Shown here in pieces: positions 35,210-59,230 of a DNA stretch of 64,000 nt. The notes below the pieces were generated by a model. It did no database searches and was not told where the DNA came from. It saw only the letters and a list, made by a program, of their open reading frames with translations. The DNA comes from Solobacterium sp. (GTDB lineage Bacteria; Bacillota_I; Bacilli_A; Erysipelotrichales; Erysipelotrichaceae), in assembly GCA_017404505.1 (NCBI GenBank), contig JAFRCE010000016.1:62001-126000 (forward strand). The letters run 5' to 3'. The position numbers were made by a program, and so were the translations under genes. The first letter of the stretch is position 1, and each line of letters begins with the position of its first letter.

Positions 35210-36061
35210 TTACGGTTTGACATCAAAGGCTTTGCGGCGGATCGTTGATGTGATCATCTTCTGTTTCATTCCTTCGACATCCTCTGCTTCCAGAAGATTC
35301 CGGAAATCCTGCATTTCCTTGACAAACGCGTCGATCTCCGCCAACAGATAATCCTGGTTCTGCAGGAACAGTTCCGGCCACAGGTTCTCGTTGATGCTGG
35401 CGATGCGGGTCAGATCCCGGAAACTGTCACCGGTATATTTCACCAGGTCCGTGCAGTCGGTCACGTTCATCAGACTGACCGCGATCACATGCGACAGCTG
35501 GGAAACAAAGCCGATCATGTTGTCATGTTCTTCCGGCGTCAGTATGCCGATATAGCGGAATTTCAGAGCTTCGGCAATATCCCGGGCTGTCTGTATGGCA
35601 CGCTCCGTGTTGGCGGCGGTCGGCACAATAATATAATTGGCCTGATGGAAGCGGGTGCAGTCCGCAAAGTGAATGCCCTGCGACTCCCTTCCCGCCATCG
35701 GATGGGCCGCGATGTATTCGACGTCGGGCCGCAGGATGGCATTGATTTCCCGGATGACATTGCGCTTGACACCGGTCACGTCTGTCAGAATCGTGCCGGA
35801 CGTGAAAAGGTGCTGGTATTTTCCGACCCACTCTATGAACGTTTTCGGATAGAGGGCGGAAATCACGATGCCGCTGCCGGCCACAAGTTCCGGATCCGGA
35901 CCGCCTTCTGTGATCCAGCCCTGTTCCTTTGCATACTGAATGGCTTCTGGATCTATGTCGATACCGGTTACCTGGCAGCCCGCTTCGGAAAGCCCCTGGG
36001 CATAGCTGCCACCCAGCAGACCGAGACCGATAATCGTGATTTTTGTGTCTTTACTGATCAT
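35210..36061 (-). CDS. tyrA: Prephenate dehydrogenase
   Basis: Converts prephenate to 4-hydroxyphenylpyruvate for tyrosine synthesis. The 283-residue protein has the NAD-binding fold IIGLGLLGGSYAQGL, the prephenate-site segment AAHPMAGRESQGI, and VSQLSHVIAVSLMN. There is no C-terminal ACT domain and no chorismate mutase fusion. Last gene of the aro operon, overlapping aroA by 4 bases. No chorismate mutase gene is visible in the window. Confidence 0.93.
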   Translation of the reverse strand: MISKDTKITIIGLGLLGGSYAQGLSEAGCQVTGIDIDPEAIQYAKEQGWITEGGPDPELVAGSGIVISALYPKTFIEWVGKYQHLFTSGTILTDVTGVKRNVIREINAILRPDVEYIAAHPMAGRESQGIHFADCTRFHQANYIIVPTAANTERAIQTARDIAEALKFRYIGILTPEEHDNMIGFVSQLSHVIAVSLMNVTDCTDLVKYTGDSFRDLTRIASINENLWPELFLQNQDYLLAEIDAFVKEMQDFRNLLEAEDVEGMKQKMITSTIRRKAFDVKP

Positions 36062-37317
36062 ATTGCATATGCTCCTGTTTTCTGCAGATCCGAAAAGAAA
36101 TCCGGATAGCTTTTCGCCACGGCTTCACAGCCGCGAATGGTGATCTTCTCGTCCGAAGAAGCCGCCAGCACGCTTAAGGCCATGACGATACGATGATCAT
36201 TATGGCTGCTGAGAACGGCGTTTCTGAGTGAGGAAGTGCCTGTGACATACACCGTATCCTGATCGGATGTCATCTGAACGCCAAGCCTGGCAAGTTCCTC
36301 TTCCATTGCCTGAATACGGTCGCTTTCTTTCAGCCGCAGTCTTCCGGCGCCGCGGAATACCGAAGTTCCTTCCGCCCGGGCCGCCGCGGCGAATAATACC
36401 GGGCCAAGATCCGGACAGTCGGACAGATCCGCTTCGACGGCTTTCATCGCATGCGGAATGATCCGGCAGCCTTCTTCCGTCCAGACCGTTTCCGCTCCGA
36501 GACGCTCAGCGATCTTCACCATGACAAGATCTCCCTGGGCGGAAGCGGGATTCAGTCCGGCAATCGTCAGCGGCACTTTTCTGAGCATGGCCAGGGCGAT
36601 AAAGAACGCCGCCGCGGAAGCATCCGCTTCCACACGGGCTGTAAACGGCTGATACTTCTGCCCGCCGTCGATCCGGTAGAGCGATCCTTCAGCAGCGATC
36701 CTAATACCGGCCTGCTTTAACGCGGACAGCGTCAGATTCACATATGATCTGGATTCAAACGGTTCCATGACCCGGATGAGACTGTCCCCTTCCAGCATCG
36801 GCAGGGCGTACAGAAGTCCGGTAATAAACTGGGAAGAGATATTGCCGGCAATCTCGTATTCGCCGGATTGCAGCGGACCCCGCACCTTCAGCTGTTCGTC
36901 ATTCATCATAAACAGACAGCCCTGTTCCCGGAAGATTTCTTCGTAAACCGTCTGCGGACGCTGCAGCAGTCTGCCATGGCCTGTAAAGCGGACTTCCTGA
37001 TCCGTTACGGCGGCGATGGGAATCAGAAAACGCAGTGTGCTGCCGGATTCCGCGCAGTCGATCAGACGGCCGTCATAGCGGATCCTTCCGCCGGTTCCCT
37101 CTACGATCAGATCATTCCCGTCGGTCCGTATCTTTGCCCCGAACGCTTCAATACACCGTCTGGTCGCGGCGATGTCTTCATTGTCAGCCAGCCGGCTGAT
37201 GCGGGAAGTGCCTTCGGCCAGAGCCGCGGCGATCAGCACCCGGTGGCTGAGTGATTTGCTGGATGGAACATGAATGACCGTATCCGCCGGCATACCGCGG
37301 CTTACCGTGATCTCCAT
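36058..37317 (-). CDS. aroA: 3-phosphoshikimate 1-carboxyvinyltransferase (EPSP synthase)
   Basis: Sixth step of the shikimate pathway. In 419 residues: the N-terminal PSSKSLSHRVLIAAALAEG, the PEP-site signature CAESGSTLRFLIPIAA, and RLRLKESDRIQAMEEEL near the C-terminus. Overlaps aroF by 1 base and tyrA by 4. Confidence 0.95.
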   Translation of the reverse strand: MEITVSRGMPADTVIHVPSSKSLSHRVLIAAALAEGTSRISRLADNEDIAATRRCIEAFGAKIRTDGNDLIVEGTGGRIRYDGRLIDCAESGSTLRFLIPIAAVTDQEVRFTGHGRLLQRPQTVYEEIFREQGCLFMMNDEQLKVRGPLQSGEYEIAGNISSQFITGLLYALPMLEGDSLIRVMEPFESRSYVNLTLSALKQAGIRIAAEGSLYRIDGGQKYQPFTARVEADASAAAFFIALAMLRKVPLTIAGLNPASAQGDLVMVKIAERLGAETVWTEEGCRIIPHAMKAVEADLSDCPDLGPVLFAAAARAEGTSVFRGAGRLRLKESDRIQAMEEELARLGVQMTSDQDTVYVTGTSSLRNAVLSSHNDHRIVMALSVLAASSDEKITIRGCEAVAKSYPDFFSDLQKTGAYAI

Positions 37318-38333
37318 CAGAGTTTCCTTCCCACTGCCGCGGCAACCAGGGCTGCCTTTTCGATCAGCTGGGCGAATTTCTCCGGTTTCAATGACTGGGC
37401 ACCGTCTGACCAGGCTTTTTCCGGTTCGTCGTGCACTTCGATGATCAGGCCGTCGGCACCGGCCGCCACGGCAGCCAGAGCCATCGGTTCGATCAGTTTC
37501 CAGTCACCGGTCGCATGCGACGGATCGATGATCACTGGCAGATGGGTACGTTCCTTCAGGATCGGCACAACCGCAAGATCCATGGTATTGCGGGTATATT
37601 TTTCAAACGTACGGATGCCTCTTTCACAGAAGATGACATTGGGATTGCCAGAGGCCATGATATATTCCGCCGACATGATCCAGTCTTCAATCGTTGCGCT
37701 CATGCCTCTTTTCAGCAGAACCGGCTTGTGAATATGGCCGACTGCTTTCAGCAGGTCGAAGTTCTGCATGTTGCGGGCACCGATCTGCACCAGATCGACA
37801 TATTCTTCAAACTCGTCGATCTTGTCCGCACTCATGATCTCACTGACGACCGGCAGACCTGTCATTTTCCCGGCCGCGGCAAGATCCATCAGACCTTCAT
37901 AACCAAGTCCCTGAAAGGCATACGGCGAAGTACGCGGCTTATAGGCACCGCCTCTCAGCATGTCCGCGCCGCCTTCCTTTACCGCCTGAGCGATCCGGCA
38001 GATCTGTTCTTTTCCTTCCACCGAACACGGTCCGCCAATCACGGTGATCTTTTCCTGTCCGCCGACTTTCACCCCGGCCACATCGACAATGGTATCTTTC
38101 GGGTGAAACATGCGGTTGGCCAGCTTATAGGGCGCTGACACACGCTGAACGTTTTCCACCCAGATATTGGCTTTGATATCTCTTTCATCCAGATGGGAAG
38201 TGTCACCGACCAGACCGAACACGTTGAAATCAACACCTTTGATCAGAGTGACCTGCAGTCCCTCGTCCTCAAACATCTGATGCAGACGTTCAACTTCCGT
38301 CTGCGGTGCGTTCTTCTTAAGTGTAATGATCAT
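37317..38333 (-). CDS. aroF: 3-deoxy-7-phosphoheptulonate synthase (DAHP synthase, AroF/B. subtilis type)
   Basis: First step of the pathway (PEP plus erythrose 4-phosphate). The 338-residue type I-beta enzyme starts with a ferredoxin-like regulatory domain of ~70 residues (MIITLKKNAPQTEVERLHQM), which in relatives mediates feedback control. The barrel follows with GGPCSVEGKEQI, RGGAYKPRTSPYAFQGLG and VIIDPSHATGDWKLI. Overlaps aroEK by 4 bases. Confidence 0.94.
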   Translation of the reverse strand: MIITLKKNAPQTEVERLHQMFEDEGLQVTLIKGVDFNVFGLVGDTSHLDERDIKANIWVENVQRVSAPYKLANRMFHPKDTIVDVAGVKVGGQEKITVIGGPCSVEGKEQICRIAQAVKEGGADMLRGGAYKPRTSPYAFQGLGYEGLMDLAAAGKMTGLPVVSEIMSADKIDEFEEYVDLVQIGARNMQNFDLLKAVGHIHKPVLLKRGMSATIEDWIMSAEYIMASGNPNVIFCERGIRTFEKYTRNTMDLAVVPILKERTHLPVIIDPSHATGDWKLIEPMALAAVAAGADGLIIEVHDEPEKAWSDGAQSLKPEKFAQLIEKAALVAAAVGRKL

Positions 38334-39583
38334 ATGCGTTTCTTCCTTTCTCCGGTTTTCCTGAGGATCTCGGCAACGGTATCACCGATATCCCCGGTAT
38401 TGTCAGCACTGACGTCACTGTACAGTTCATACAGCGGTTTCCGCTCTTCATACAGCTTGCGGAGCGCGTCCGCATTACTGGAAAGCGGCCGCGAATCCGT
38501 CGCGAACAACTGCTCGATGCCGCGCTTCAGCCAGACAACGATACTGTTCTCAGAAAGAAAGCGCATCGTTTCCGGATTCTTGATCACACCGCCGCCGCAG
38601 GAGATGACAAACCGGCCGCCGCTGCGCAGGTCTTTGGCGACTTCCTGTTCCAGCCAGCGGAAGTAATCTTCGCCTTTTTCCGCAAAACACTCTTTGATCG
38701 AAGTGCCGAGAATTTCGACGATCTCATCATCCATCTCGATGACATCCCGGCCGCAAACTTCTCCCAGCAATGCCGAAACAGTCGTTTTGCCGGCGGTTGG
38801 CATACCGATCAGGACGATGCTGCGGCGGTCCCGGTACAGTTCTTCCAGACATGCCGTGATCAGCTGCGGATCCAGCTGTTTGCCGGTATAAAGCAGATCG
38901 GCATACCAGGCCTGCGCCACCAGCATTTCCAGACCGCCGGCCGTTTTCAGATGGCGGCAGCCCGCTTCAAACAGCAGTCTGCTGCGCAGCGGATTGGCAA
39001 TGATGTCAGCCACCGCTTCCAGTCTGCCAAAGCGGTCAAGGTCAACCGGCATTTCGTCCGGATGGGGAGCCAGGCCGACCGGTGTCGTATTGATGATGAC
39101 CTGATAGTCATCACTTCTTTCGTACATCGTTTCATACAGGATCGTATCTTCCCTCTCGGCTTTCCGGCTGACAATGTCAAAGTCGGCACCGAGAATCGTC
39201 AGCGCCGCCGCGACCGCCCGGGAGGCACCGCCGCTGCCCAGCACGGCCGTTTTTTTGTTTCTGACATCGATCTGATTCCGTTTCAGCATCTCCATGAAAC
39301 CGAGATAATCGGTGTTGTAGCCTTTGAGAATGCCGTCGTGATTGACAATCGTATTGACAGCGCCGATTTTCGCGGCTGTCTCATCGATTTCATCCAGGTA
39401 CTGCATGACCTTCTGCTTATAAGGGATCGTGACATTCAGACCGTCGAAATCCTTTTTCGTCATAAAGTCAGCCAGTTCTTCCGGTTTCAGTTCAAACATC
39501 TGGTAATCCGATCCGATCATAAAATCATGGATCGGCTTCGACCAGCTGTGGCCCAGCGGATAACCGATCAGTCCGAGTTTCAT
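38330..39583 (-). CDS. aroE-aroK: Shikimate dehydrogenase-shikimate kinase fusion (AroE-AroK)
   Basis: One 417-residue frame covers two consecutive-function enzymes. Residues 1 to ~250 are AroE: GLIGYPLGHSWSKPIHD, the catalytic Lys in NVTIPYKQKV, the Asp in KGYNTDYLGFM, and the NADP fold AVLGSGGASRAVAAAL. Residues ~255-417 are shikimate kinase: Walker A LIGMPTAGKTTVSALL, substrate Asp in VIEMDDEIVE, VISCGGGVIKNPET, and the lid RPLSSNAD. It should carry out NADPH reduction of dehydroshikimate and ATP phosphorylation of shikimate in one polypeptide. The frame is open throughout, so the fusion is not a sequencing artefact visible here. Overlaps neighbours by 4 bases on each side. Confidence 0.93.
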   Translation of the reverse strand: MKLGLIGYPLGHSWSKPIHDFMIGSDYQMFELKPEELADFMTKKDFDGLNVTIPYKQKVMQYLDEIDETAAKIGAVNTIVNHDGILKGYNTDYLGFMEMLKRNQIDVRNKKTAVLGSGGASRAVAAALTILGADFDIVSRKAEREDTILYETMYERSDDYQVIINTTPVGLAPHPDEMPVDLDRFGRLEAVADIIANPLRSRLLFEAGCRHLKTAGGLEMLVAQAWYADLLYTGKQLDPQLITACLEELYRDRRSIVLIGMPTAGKTTVSALLGEVCGRDVIEMDDEIVEILGTSIKECFAEKGEDYFRWLEQEVAKDLRSGGRFVISCGGGVIKNPETMRFLSENSIVVWLKRGIEQLFATDSRPLSSNADALRKLYEERKPLYELYSDVSADNTGDIGDTVAEILRKTGERKKRI

Positions 39584-40689
39584 ATATGTCCCTCCTCAAA
39601 GCCGGCCCGGCCGTATTTTTCCATCAGCAGATCCGCGACAGCCAGAGCTGTTACCGCGTCGATGACCGCCCGGGCACGGTGAATAACGGCCGGATCGTGA
39701 CGGCCGCGGATCTCGATTTCCGTATTTGTCATCGTTTCCAGATCCACTGTCGCCTGCTTTCTGCCGATCGAAGGCGTCGGCTTGATGACGGTTTCAAAAC
39801 GGATCGGCATGCCGTTGGAAATGCCGCCGTTGATACCGCCGTTATGGTTGCTGAGGGTCTGCACCGCACCGTCTTTTACAGCAAAGGGATCGTTGGCCTG
39901 TGAGCCATACATATCCGCGAAAGCGAAACCGCTGCCGAACTGCACGCCCTTGACAGCCGGCACGGCAAACAGCGCTTTGGCAAGCACGCCTTCCAGAGTA
40001 TCGAACATCGGTTCGCCGATTCCCGCTTCCAGACCGTAAACGGCTGTTTCAAGGATACCGCCGACCGAGTCTTTCTTTGCGGCTGCTTCTTCGATCAGAG
40101 CTTTCATCTTTTCTTCCGATGCCGCTTCCAGCACGGCAAACAGCCGGCTGTTGACCAGTTCGATGTCTTCTTTCAGATGTTCTTCGGAAAACGGTCTTTC
40201 TTCAATATGATGCAGTTTACGGATATGGGTGCCGATCAGGATACCTTTTTCCTTCAGCATCTGCATGGCGATCGCCCCGGCGGCTGTCAGAGGAGCCGTC
40301 AGACGGGCGCTGAAATGACCGCCGCCCGATGCGTCTTCGAAACCGCCGTAACGGATGTGGCCGCTGTAGTCGGCATGGGAAGGCCGCGGTTTATTCATCG
40401 TGGCTGCGTAGTCATCACGGCGTACGTTCTCATTGCGGATGATCAGGGTCAGCGGTGTGCCTTCCGTGTATCCGTCTTTCAGACCGGAAACAAACTCCGG
40501 CAGATCCGCTTCCTGGCGGGCTGTCGAAATCTTTCCGGATGCTTTTCTTTTCTTCATCTGATCCAGCAGAAAATCCATGTCGATCTTCAGGCCGGACGGC
40601 AGTCCGTCAATGACAGCACCGACAGCCGGTCCATGTGACTCACCGAAAATGGTCACGGTCAGATTCTTGCCAAGTGTGTTCCCGCTCAT
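39580..40689 (-). CDS. aroC: Chorismate synthase
   Basis: Last common step, EPSP to chorismate with reduced FMN. In 369 residues: FGESHGPAVGAVIDGLPSG near the start, RPSHADYSGHIRYGGFEDASGGGHFSARLT, and the C-terminal IEIRGRHDPAVIHRA. 4-base overlaps with aroB and aroEK. Confidence 0.95.
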   Translation of the reverse strand: MSGNTLGKNLTVTIFGESHGPAVGAVIDGLPSGLKIDMDFLLDQMKKRKASGKISTARQEADLPEFVSGLKDGYTEGTPLTLIIRNENVRRDDYAATMNKPRPSHADYSGHIRYGGFEDASGGGHFSARLTAPLTAAGAIAMQMLKEKGILIGTHIRKLHHIEERPFSEEHLKEDIELVNSRLFAVLEAASEEKMKALIEEAAAKKDSVGGILETAVYGLEAGIGEPMFDTLEGVLAKALFAVPAVKGVQFGSGFAFADMYGSQANDPFAVKDGAVQTLSNHNGGINGGISNGMPIRFETVIKPTPSIGRKQATVDLETMTNTEIEIRGRHDPAVIHRARAVIDAVTALAVADLLMEKYGRAGFEEGHI

Positions 40690-41687
40690 ATCAATTTCTC
40701 CCTGAGACTGTCGATCTCAACTTCTTTCAGATATCCTTTGCCGATCTCATCCACCTGAACGATCGTGATTCTGTCATGGCTGGCTTTCTTGTCATTCCGC
40801 AGCAGCCGGAATACTTCTTCCTTGTCGTTATCACAGCGAATCGGCAGATTGAGCCTCTGCAGGACAGCCTTCAGCCGCTCTTTCAGTGCGGGATCGTCCA
40901 TGATCGCCAGCATGCCCATGCCCACGCATTCGCCATGCAGATATTCCGCAAGACCATGCGAGGCCTCATAGGCATGGCCGATCGTATGGCCGAAATTCAG
41001 CAGCTTCCGCTCGCCTTCCTCCCGCTCGTCACGTTCGACGACACCTTTTTTGATCATCAGGCACCGGTAAATAATGTCATCGATATGGTCCGGATAATCA
41101 TCCTTCTCAAAGATCTCAAACAGACTTTCATCAAACGTCAGTCCTTCCTTGACTGCTTCGGCCAGTCCGTTGCTGAAATGGCGCGCGGGCAGAGTCGCAA
41201 GGACATCGGTATCCACCAGCACCGCATCCGGCTGCCAGAAGGCACCGACCAGGTTCTTGACACCGGCCAGATCGACAGCCGTCTTGCCGCCGATCGACGA
41301 ATCGATCTGTGAGAGGGTCGTCGTCGGAATGTTGACATAGGAAATGCCGCGCTTATAGACAGACGCCGCAAAGCCGGCCAGATCACCGACCACCCCGCCG
41401 CCCAGGGCGACGACAGTATCGTTCCGGGCTACCTGATGTTCCGCCATATCTTCCAGAAGACGCCTCAGGGTGTCCATGTTTTTCGACGGTTCACCATGCA
41501 GAAAGACATGCATATGCGCCCCGGGATACTGACGCTGCAGAAGAGCCCGCCACGTTTCCGGCACACCGTCGTCACTGACCAGAAAAACCCGTCCTTTTCT
41601 GCTGATGTATTCTGAAGCTTTTCCCAGGATTCCCCTTTCCAGAATCACCGGATAGGTTTTTGTTTTTGTACGTACCATGATTTCCAT
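40686..41687 (-). CDS. aroB: 3-dehydroquinate synthase
   Basis: Second pathway step. In 333 residues: NAD-site GGGVVGDLAGFAASVYKRGI, and the zinc/active-site segments RHFSNGLAEAVKEGL, NFGHTIGHAYEASHG and LHGECVGMGM. The ATG at 41687 is preferred because AGGAGG (41702-41697) lies 9 bases upstream; a longer frame to 41723 has no such site and would enter the attenuator. It is the first structural gene behind the Tyr/Phe leader. Confidence 0.94.
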   Translation of the reverse strand: MEIMVRTKTKTYPVILERGILGKASEYISRKGRVFLVSDDGVPETWRALLQRQYPGAHMHVFLHGEPSKNMDTLRRLLEDMAEHQVARNDTVVALGGGVVGDLAGFAASVYKRGISYVNIPTTTLSQIDSSIGGKTAVDLAGVKNLVGAFWQPDAVLVDTDVLATLPARHFSNGLAEAVKEGLTFDESLFEIFEKDDYPDHIDDIIYRCLMIKKGVVERDEREEGERKLLNFGHTIGHAYEASHGLAEYLHGECVGMGMLAIMDDPALKERLKAVLQRLNLPIRCDNDKEEVFRLLRNDKKASHDRITIVQVDEIGKGYLKEVEIDSLREKLI

Positions 41688-41713
41688 ATCGAGAAACCTC
41701 CTGCTGATGAAAC

Positions 41714-41807
41714 AAAAAGCCATACGGCGTTATCCGCATGGCTGATCATTTCTTTCCATTCAGATAATGCCGTTAAGATGAAACGGGCAGTTATCTGCTA
41801 ACTGCCC
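41714..41807 (-). promoter_or_regulatory. Transcription attenuator of the aro operon (pause hairpin, antiterminator, terminator)
   Basis: On the minus strand, 3 bases after the leader-peptide stop, comes a perfect 9-bp hairpin GGGCAGTTA/TAACTGCCC (41807-41785). Next is AACGGCATTATCTG (41774-41761), then an intrinsic terminator GCCATGCGG/CCGTATGGC with five T (41742-41714). ACGGC-TTATC of the middle segment can pair with GATAA-GCCGT inside the terminator (41734-41724, one mismatch), forming an antiterminator. TTATCTG of the same segment can instead pair with CAGATAA in the first hairpin. This gives mutually exclusive folds. The mechanism is inferred from the pairing; sequences were read directly. 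Confidence 0.75.
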
Positions 41808-41810
41808 AGC

Positions 41811-41855
41811 TTATCTGTAATAAAAGTAAAAATATGTGCATGCTGTCTGATTCAT
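41811..41855 (-). CDS. Leader peptide of the aro operon (MNQTACTYFYFYYR)
   Basis: A 14-codon frame whose codons 8-13 are Tyr-Phe-Tyr-Phe-Tyr-Tyr, ending in Arg and TAA, three bases before the first attenuator hairpin. Six aromatic codons in a row, directly upstream of a terminator that precedes the tyrosine/phenylalanine pathway genes, is the classical layout of ribosome-mediated attenuation as in pheA/pheST leaders of enterobacteria. A -10-like TATAGT lies about 15 bases upstream. The ribosome binding site is poor, and the start could be used with a very short leader or on readthrough mRNA from pheA. Confidence 0.78.
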   Translation of the reverse strand: MNQTACTYFYFYYR

Positions 41856-41889
41856 CTAACAAAAACTTTACTATACGCCCCTGCCGTTT

Positions 41890-42741
41890 TCAAGACTGAT
41901 TTTCTGAAAACTTTTCAGGATCAGCAGCCGGATAGCAGCCTAACAGTTTTGTCTCTTCACAGCGCAGTTCCAGTTCCTTCAGAACTTCTTTGATTTCCCG
42001 GTTTCTGATGTTTCCGCTGAAATCGATATAGAACATATATTCGAAGATTCTGCCCGGAATCGGCCGCGATTCCAGTTTCATGATATTGATGCCTTTTTTG
42101 GCAAGAATGCCAAGGATGTTGTAAAGTGCGCCGGGACGGTGCTTCAGCACCAGCATCATGGAAATCTTATCCGCTTTGGGATCCAGTTCCTCTTTGGCGG
42201 TGACGATCAGAAAACGGGTCATGTTCAGATCGGAGTCCTGCACTTTGCTGATCAGCGATTCCAGACCGTAGTATTCCCTGGCCCGCCAGCTGCCCAGCGC
42301 GGCCTTGGTGCGATCGCCGCATTCTCTGACATATTCCACACTGCGGGCGGTGTCCTGGAAAGGAACTGACTTTATCCCGGGATGCGCGGCAAAGAATTCC
42401 GTGCACTGTGAGAGAGCCTCCGGATGGCTGTATACTTCCTGTATCTCTTCCAGTTTCGTGCCGGGAAGCACGATCAGATCTTCATGGATGGGAATGTCGA
42501 TTTCGCCGACCGCATGAACGTCGTAATGACGGAACAGATCGTAGCAGCGGGCAATGACGCCGGTCGTCGTATTCTCCACCGGCAGCACGGCATAATCCAG
42601 AACACCGTTTTCGACGTCTGTCAGTATCACCTTAAAATTCGGATAACCGCATGCCTCATAGTCTTTTCCGGCGAAAAAACGCATTGCCGCGATTTCACTG
42701 AACGTTCCGTGATTGCCCTGATAACCAACCTTTATCTTCAT
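41890..42741 (-). CDS. pheA: Prephenate dehydratase with ACT domain
   Basis: Makes phenylpyruvate from prephenate. In 283 residues: GYQGNHGTFSEIAAMRFF, the VENTTTGVIARCYDLF segment, and TRFLIVTAKEE as the catalytic-domain end. A C-terminal ACT domain (LVLKHRPGALYNILGILAKK, then LESRPIPGRIFEYMFYIDF) has the ESRP motif that binds phenylalanine for feedback inhibition. The ATG at 42741 follows GGGAGAAAAGT. It is upstream of the leader/attenuator, so it escapes that control unless the downstream genes are read through from here. Confidence 0.94.
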   Translation of the reverse strand: MKIKVGYQGNHGTFSEIAAMRFFAGKDYEACGYPNFKVILTDVENGVLDYAVLPVENTTTGVIARCYDLFRHYDVHAVGEIDIPIHEDLIVLPGTKLEEIQEVYSHPEALSQCTEFFAAHPGIKSVPFQDTARSVEYVRECGDRTKAALGSWRAREYYGLESLISKVQDSDLNMTRFLIVTAKEELDPKADKISMMLVLKHRPGALYNILGILAKKGINIMKLESRPIPGRIFEYMFYIDFSGNIRNREIKEVLKELELRCEETKLLGCYPAADPEKFSENQS

Positions 42742-58975: not shown

Positions 58976-59230
58976 AAAAAAGCGTCCTGCCAAGGGACGC
59001 TTCACGTGGTTCCACCCAAATTCACCGGCGTCTCACGGCGGCCGGCCTCACGAAGTACTATCATACTCCTGTGCTGTAACGTGCACACACGTCATTCCCT
59101 ACTGTGATTTCGGAAAAGCGGCTCCGGGATGTGTTTTCCGCAGTTCGGATCCGCTTCCTTTCACCACCCGGAAGCTCTCTTCAGCACCGTCTTCTGCTTA
59201 CTTTTTCCCTTCTCAGCCTTTCTGATTATT
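58976..59230 (-). promoter_or_regulatory. T-box leader (histidine) of the his operon
   Basis: The minus strand holds a full T-box element. First come the AGTA-type stem I start (AGAAGGGAAAAAGTA) and the AG-bulge/distal loop AGAGAGCTTCCGGGTGGTGAA. The specifier context GAAAACACATCCCGGAG gives a CAC (His) codon at 59133-59131. The T-box sequence GGGTGGAACCACG is at 59017-59005, and the terminator AGCGTCC/GGACGCT plus six T at 59001-58976. Uncharged tRNA-His should bind the specifier and T-box bulge and prevent termination. This fills the 321-base gap between hisZ and the surface-protein gene. Confidence 0.93.

Follow-up and report, generated by a model that had tools for sequence, protein, structure and literature searches.

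The stretch of DNA analysed here, hereafter the window, comprises 64,000 nt of Solobacterium sp. (Erysipelotrichaceae; assembly GCA_017404505.1, contig JAFRCE010000016.1, positions 62,001 to 126,000). Its minus strand carries the operon aroB-aroC-aroEK-DAHPS-aroA-tyrA, which combines synthesis of the Tyr and Phe precursor with tyrA (Table 1). The operon is preceded by pheA, the prephenate dehydratase gene, which ends at 41890 on the same strand, and the aroB ATG lies at 41687. Read in the direction of transcription, the gap between the two genes holds a predicted promoter, a short leader ORF, a hairpin (hairpin 1), a purine-rich strand (segment 3), an intrinsic terminator and the Shine-Dalgarno sequence of aroB. 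These features are tightly packed: the -35 box of the promoter overlaps the pheA stop codon, 35 nt separate the end of pheA from the leader ATG, hairpin 1 starts 2-3 nt past the leader stop, and 8 nt lie between the end of the terminator U-tract and the aroB Shine-Dalgarno sequence. No Rfam family, including the amino acid leader families, matches positions 41690-41900 at gathering score.

Table 1. Features of the pheA-aroB gap and of the aro operon, in positions of the window.
Feature	Position	Strand	Basis
Predicted sigma-A promoter, TTGAAA-N17-TAAAGT	41865..41893	-	consensus match; same position recurs in relatives
Leader ORF, MNQTACTYFYFYYR-stop, 14 codons (ATG-AAT-CAG-ACA-GCA-TGC-ACA-TAT-TTT-TAC-TTT-TAT-TAC-AGA-TAA, read 41855-41811)	41811..41855	-	sequence; 48 distinct homologous leaders
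Six Tyr/Phe codons in a row (TAT TTT TAC TTT TAT TAC), proposed sensor	41817..41834	-	sequence
Segment 0, leader ORF end (TACTTTTATTACAGATAA region, Tyr/Phe codons and stop), pairs with segment 3	41811..41828	-	minimum-energy fold
Hairpin 1 (segments 1:2), perfect, TGGGCAGTTA-GCAGA-TAACTGCCCG	41784..41808	-	fold and covariation
Segment 2, GATAACTGCC, 3' arm of hairpin 1, alternative partner of segment 3	41786..41795	-	pairing
Segment 3, AACGGCATTATCTGAATGGAAAG, mobile strand, pairs alternatively with segments 0, 2 and 4	41752..41773	-	alignment
Segment 4, CCATGCGGATAACGCC, antiterminator partner of segment 3	41726..41741	-	covariation
Intrinsic terminator, AGCCATGCGG-ATAACG-CCGTATGGCT then TTTTGTTT	41710..41743	-	sequence and covariation
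aroB Shine-Dalgarno sequence, AGGAGG	41697..41702	-	sequence
aroB, 3-dehydroquinate synthase, first operon gene	40686..41687	-	PF01761, PF24621
aroC, chorismate synthase	39580..40689	-	PF01264
aroE-aroK fusion, shikimate dehydrogenase and shikimate kinase	38330..39583	-	PF08501, PF01202
DAHP synthase	37317..38333	-	PF00793, PF18152
aroA, EPSP synthase	36058..37317	-	PF00275
tyrA, prephenate dehydrogenase, commits to Tyr	35210..36061	-	PF02153, PF20463

An earlier note on this DNA had interpreted the gap as a Tyr/Phe leader-peptide attenuator, and its coordinates and description hold; six aromatic codons stand in a row at 41834-41817. The leader is the sole ORF of at most 35 codons with at least five consecutive Tyr/Phe codons in the 64-kb window, and such ORFs are absent from 30 dinucleotide shuffles of it. 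Homologous leaders number 52 in Erysipelotrichaceae, 48 of them distinct, and nearly all sit at the same position with respect to aroB. If the stop codon is numbered -1, Tyr or Phe is found in 69-96% of the leaders at positions -8 to -3. The two residues are about equal in number and their codons interchange freely at the same positions, from which we infer that a shortage of either amino acid should suffice for a stall. The N-terminal residues before the run are variable, while start codon, frame and stop are retained. At codons -7 to -3, Tyr and Phe make up 86% of the residues in frame, versus 17% in each of the other two frames and 44% when the letters are shuffled, which argues against conservation as a U-rich strand only; one alternative frame of the same stretch contains 34 stops. 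Judging from these alignments, the leader is conserved as a peptide. In two leaders (L043 and L005) the frame has shifted at the ORF end, yet the GATA complementary to segment 3 is retained in both, in line with a stretch that serves as codons and as a pairing strand alike.

The position of the predicted promoter suggests little or no untranslated stretch before the leader. In the window, 9 nt lie between its -10 box and the leader ATG, for a predicted start 1-2 nt upstream of that ATG, which would make the transcript leaderless or nearly so. Spacings of 6-9 nt between the end of a consensus-predicted -10 box and the ATG are found in 15 of the 52 leaders, that of the window included; these leaders look leaderless or nearly so, with a predicted start at or within 1-2 nt of the ATG. 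The remaining leaders have 12-31 nt between the -10 box and the ATG, many of them with a Shine-Dalgarno sequence. When 32 leaders were compared with their own aroB genes, the best Shine-Dalgarno match averaged 3.3 nt for the leaders versus 5.6 nt for aroB.

The leader RNA is markedly more stable than expected from its composition (z = -5.8 relative to shuffles, with none of 200 shuffles folding as well), and segment 3 is the strand around which its alternative structures are organized. Within it, AACGGCATTATCTGAATGG (41773-41756) is complementary to CCATGCGGATAACGCC (41741-41726) or to GATAACTGCC (41795-41786), the latter being the 3' arm of hairpin 1. The terminator consists of a hairpin at 41743-41718 and a U-tract that extends to 41710, and segment 4 shares nucleotides with the 5' arm and loop of this hairpin and with the beginning of its 3' arm. 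The perfect hairpin just past the leader stop (41808-41784) and the mutually exclusive antiterminator and terminator helices ahead of aroB, both proposed earlier, are thus present. That set of hairpin 1, antiterminator and terminator was correct as far as it went and overlooked a further helix (0:3), in which segment 3 pairs with the leader ORF end and which dominates the minimum-energy fold of the window.

Comparative support differs among these helices. Covariation was scored on an alignment of 29 elements (alignment A1), the consensus structure of which consists only of hairpin 1 and the terminator. Of the alignment cells of the terminator, 97% are paired, and two-sided changes occur at 6 of its 10 pairs and at 4 of the 9 pairs of hairpin 1. 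For the antiterminator (3:4), 83% of cells are paired, versus 36-46% in slid versions of the helix, and at one pair, which joins segment 3 to the 5' arm of the terminator, A-U is exchanged for G-C in 12 of the 29 sequences (permutation p = 0.0005, relatedness being ignored). The comparative evidence thus extends to the antiterminator. The 2:3 helix, paired in 94% of cells versus 14-39% when slid, is too invariant for covariation, and the 0:3 helix (80% versus 37-57%) covaries weakly, with one pair at p = 0.05 in a permutation test that likewise ignores relatedness. In the window itself the antiterminator carries one A-C mismatch. An AUGG:CCAU extension of the antiterminator, found in the window, was rejected as a family feature, being present in only 14 of 29 relatives.

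The influence of the ribosome on folding was computed with a thermodynamic model in which its footprint was masked codon by codon and pair probabilities were obtained for the 29 elements; footprints of 11 versus 14 nt shift the profile by one codon with the same outcome. In the model, when the A-site is on the aromatic run, hairpin 1 forms, the 0:3 helix is blocked and the antiterminator is maximal. When instead the stop codon occupies the A-site, hairpin 1 is excluded and segment 2 captures segment 3 (mean P 0.85, full RNA). These outcomes agree in direction with the earlier proposal that a ribosome stalled on the run would let hairpin 1 and the antiterminator form, and that one at the stop would remove hairpin 1, trap segment 3 and favor termination. 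On the full RNA, the mean antiterminator probability falls from 0.19-0.25 for an A-site 2-5 codons before the stop to 0.03 once the A-site is on the stop, and it is 0.00-0.02 for an A-site 8-10 codons ahead of the stop. Even with a stalled ribosome it reaches at most about 0.28 on average and 0.30 in the window, the terminator still being favored. Since the terminator remains the equilibrium winner on the complete RNA, the size of the switch would depend on co-transcriptional kinetics. On nascent RNA of the window, with the 3' arm of the terminator incomplete, the antiterminator probability is 0.88 when the ribosome is on the run, and it falls to 0.50 when the ribosome is at the stop and to 0.08 when it is absent; the corresponding means for the 29 elements are 0.88, 0.59 and 0.71. 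Stalls well before the run also yield high antiterminator values on nascent RNA, and the gap between run and stop is modest over the 29 elements. The modelled direction and position of the switch therefore agree with stall-dependent attenuation, and a terminating state for the untranslated leader appears clear for the window, not for every relative.

The events from transcription start and translation of the leader to stalling, termination and a response to Tyr and Phe are proposed to unfold as follows. RNA polymerase would start just before the leader ATG, with a ribosome following closely and translating the 14 codons of the leader. In a shortage of Tyr or Phe, the ribosome would halt on the aromatic run and cover the end of the leader ORF; hairpin 1 would then form and sequester its own 3' arm, leaving segment 3 free to pair with segment 4 as the antiterminator, and the operon would be transcribed. 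If both amino acids were plentiful, the ribosome would proceed to the stop codon, close enough to hairpin 1 to prevent its formation, and the freed segment 2 would capture segment 3, so that the terminator would form and transcription would end near 41710. Were the leader untranslated, or the ribosome departed, the ORF end would pair with segment 3, and termination would again result. Computation reveals a leader conserved as a peptide, competing helices, some of them with covariation, and folding that depends on ribosome position, and these results support the interpretation of the locus as a ribosome-mediated transcription attenuator of aroB-aroC-aroEK-DAHPS-aroA-tyrA that senses charged tRNA-Tyr and tRNA-Phe, to which we assign a probability of about 0.88.

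Other explanations would account for part of these features. The ORF might be incidental, a U/C-rich stretch kept for its pairing with the purine-rich segment 3 in an untranslated element that responds to some other signal (ligand, tRNA or protein). Such an account would accommodate the pairing of the leader stretch with segment 3 in the minimum-energy fold and the GATA letters retained where the frame has moved, but it is at odds with the frame-specific aromatic content, the free exchange of Tyr and Phe codons, the start, frame and stop kept behind a variable N-terminus, and the many stops of another frame. The region is, in addition, devoid of T-box or riboswitch matches, and we regard this explanation as very unlikely. 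An arrangement even harder to credit is that pheA has two terminators, namely hairpin 1 and the second hairpin, with the aroB promoter downstream of them and no regulated readthrough. The short distance from pheA to the leader and the terminator-like appearance of hairpin 1 are compatible with it, but the few nucleotides between the U-tract and the aroB Shine-Dalgarno sequence leave no room for a promoter, and the predicted one precedes the leader. Moreover, the complementarity of segment 3 to both hairpins and a Tyr/Phe ORF in 48 leaders would be superfluous, and the element is also found before DAHP synthase and transporter genes; of the alternatives weighed here, this one has the faintest plausibility.

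Stalling might also be brought about by the peptide itself, through nascent-chain arrest as in TnaC or erm leaders, with a ligand or drug as the trigger instead of hungry codons. Arrest peptides normally require fixed residues, but here the residues before the run are unconserved and Tyr and Phe replace one another, and the genes controlled serve aromatic amino acid synthesis or transport. Arrest of this kind is therefore extremely improbable, although ribosome-mediated attenuation in Bacillota is best studied in drug-responsive leaders, such as those of bmrC/bmrD in B. subtilis (PMC4191407) and of mef/mel (PMC4335068).

Stall-dependent attenuation at the aro operon would operate alongside T-boxes in the same genome, for which 18 T-box matches were obtained. 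Among them, with specifiers read by eye from alignments, are a tyrS T-box with specifier UAC (L106:1501-1711) and a pheS T-box with specifier UUC (L120:1501-1700), the latter match being below the Rfam cut-off. The T-box on his that the earlier note had placed in the same stretch is real: it precedes hisZ at 58990-59223, has the specifier CAC, and is the only T-box (RF00230) of the window; the aro leader has no such match. It is thus probable that one genome monitors Tyr and Phe tRNAs in two ways, with T-boxes before the synthetase genes and with hungry codons before those of the pathway.

Close named relatives belong to uncultured Erysipelotrichaceae and Solobacterium, and several of these genomes come from samples of the rumen or of other animal guts. 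A short ORF that ends 106-148 nt before aroB is present in most members of the genus, and other genera have it as well. Of 273 genomes of the family, 58, from 16 genera, have matches to a covariance model built on the 29 elements, the weakest of these matches including some non-members. The model finds one copy in the source genome and no second one. Under strict filters, the element was not found outside Erysipelotrichaceae in 395 class-wide and 392 phylum-wide genomes, two samples that overlap. Matches in G149, G242 and G208 and at a second place in G330 were not accepted as family members. Two genomes (G008 and G040; L173 and L176) have weak model matches and a terminator before aroC, without an aromatic leader.

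The earlier note had held that orthologous leaders devoid of the aromatic run would speak against its interpretation. Across the leaders compared, the Tyr/Phe run before the stop is kept while other residues are free, so that the interpretation withstands this test, and the relatives in the aroB tree that have no run have lost the whole element, in a single clade. The attenuator was lost there as a unit, once on the tree, in genomes in which pheA is joined to aroB (L024, L026, L028, L029 and L031 in the tree; L032, L035 and L038 outside it). The attenuator was sought in these genomes and not found, nor was any Rfam element before pheA. A promoter-like sequence lies directly before pheA in this clade. 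Taken together, the three observations indicate that the attenuator was lost and not moved. For the sister family f2, the stretches fetched contain no aromatic leader before the aro operon, several of them missing the operon start, and they do not count as a negative.

Leaders of other kinds, and other genes under the element, were also encountered. Four loci (L044, L046, L199 and L053, in G075, G083, G081 and G134) have leaders MHNKGYYYYR, MLFNRYYYS, MKTLTNTFYFYFR and ..KFYFYYYITPLY before aroB, with a terminator and a hairpin set quite different from that of the main family. Sensing of Tyr and Phe by a leader may have more than one origin, or may have been rebuilt on separate occasions. In G089, a model-matched leader ending in GFYYFYYR precedes DAHP synthase. 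In G217, G218, G222 and G309 (L170, L169, L178 and L175), SFFFFFR or AYYFYFYFR leaders, likewise matched by the model, precede substrate-binding lipoproteins of PF04392, and it is a natural guess that these TrpX-like ABC lipoproteins are candidate Phe/Tyr transporters. One T-box-preceded protein of the source genome is TrpX-like, with a score below the cut-off of that model.

Several features may set these leaders apart as an RNA family specific to Erysipelotrichaceae and not previously described, a broader claim for which we consider the odds about even. One strand would have three rival partners, namely the ORF end, the 3' arm of hairpin 1 and the terminator; an idle leader or a terminating ribosome would lead to termination, and only a ribosome held on the run to readthrough; about 15 of 52 leaders would be leaderless; and aro synthesis would be placed under this control, the same two tRNAs being read by T-boxes at tyrS and pheS. 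The three-partner strand and the leaderless leaders are predicted variant features. A genome that has Tyr and Phe T-boxes as well as an aro leader offers a direct test of why the same tRNAs are sensed twice. The covariance model is ready for annotating such leaders, and Phe-rich leaders before members of the TrpX-like transporter family suggest a substrate of those transporters.

Amino acid attenuation by leader peptides is textbook biology of Proteobacteria. The aro leader resembles the attenuators of the E. coli type (trp, his, pheA and pheST) in its run of cognate codons, alternative hairpins, intrinsic terminator and cognate operon. In trp, the cognate codons lie within segment 1, and stalling blocks segment 1. 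In contrast, a stall at the aro leader would occur upstream and leave hairpin 1 free, and it is the ribosome at the stop that would block hairpin 1. Like T-boxes (RF00230), the aro leader would sense the charging of cognate tRNA via transcription antitermination, but unlike them its sensing would need translation.

The earlier note had contrasted Proteobacteria, with ribosome-mediated attenuation, to Bacillota, which mostly use T-boxes. The coexistence of both types in this genome agrees with the findings above, but the contrast is less sharp than claimed, since leader attenuators have already been predicted in Bacillota, Erysipelotrichales included (PMC2965389, PMC9413887, PMC8632094). Thus, hisS*/hisZ leader peptides were predicted in Bacillus (Naville and Gautheret, 2010; PMC2965389), and a later study lists predicted His leader-peptide attenuators for his operons of the B. 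cereus group, of Eubacteriales including Peptostreptococcaceae, and of six Erysipelotrichales species (Ashniev et al., 2022; PMC9413887). These his leaders come from the same phylum and partly from the same order and, like the aro leader, combine an ORF with a cognate-codon run and a competing terminator and antiterminator before a biosynthetic operon, both being computational predictions (PMC9413887, PMC2965389). By codons and genes they differ, having His codons and his genes (PMC9413887), and hisZ in the window has a T-box instead. In Acholeplasma, uORFC-13-1 before aroF is described as a uORF with 'at least one phenylalanine' and 24 representatives (PMC8632094). By that description, it shares with the aro leader a Phe uORF, a terminator, the same pathway (theirs precedes a DAHP synthase gene) and a similar logic, and it differs in lineage and from the six aromatic codons before aroB reported here.

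A Tyr/Phe leader before aroB in Erysipelotrichaceae was not found described in the open literature, the search having left most subscription journals outside. Leader-peptide attenuation in Bacillota has so far been represented by a handful of predictions, to which a Tyr/Phe family of uncultured Erysipelotrichaceae can now be added; this family is well sampled and stands before the genes of the common aromatic pathway. The predicted start of the mRNA at the ATG, proposed for part of the aro family, and the 14-aa length of the leader recall trpL of Sinorhizobium meliloti, which differs in sensing Trp, in being alphaproteobacterial and in having an experimentally known 5' end (PMC7298713). The aro leader family is thus a well-supported addition to the already known principle of leader-peptide attenuation.
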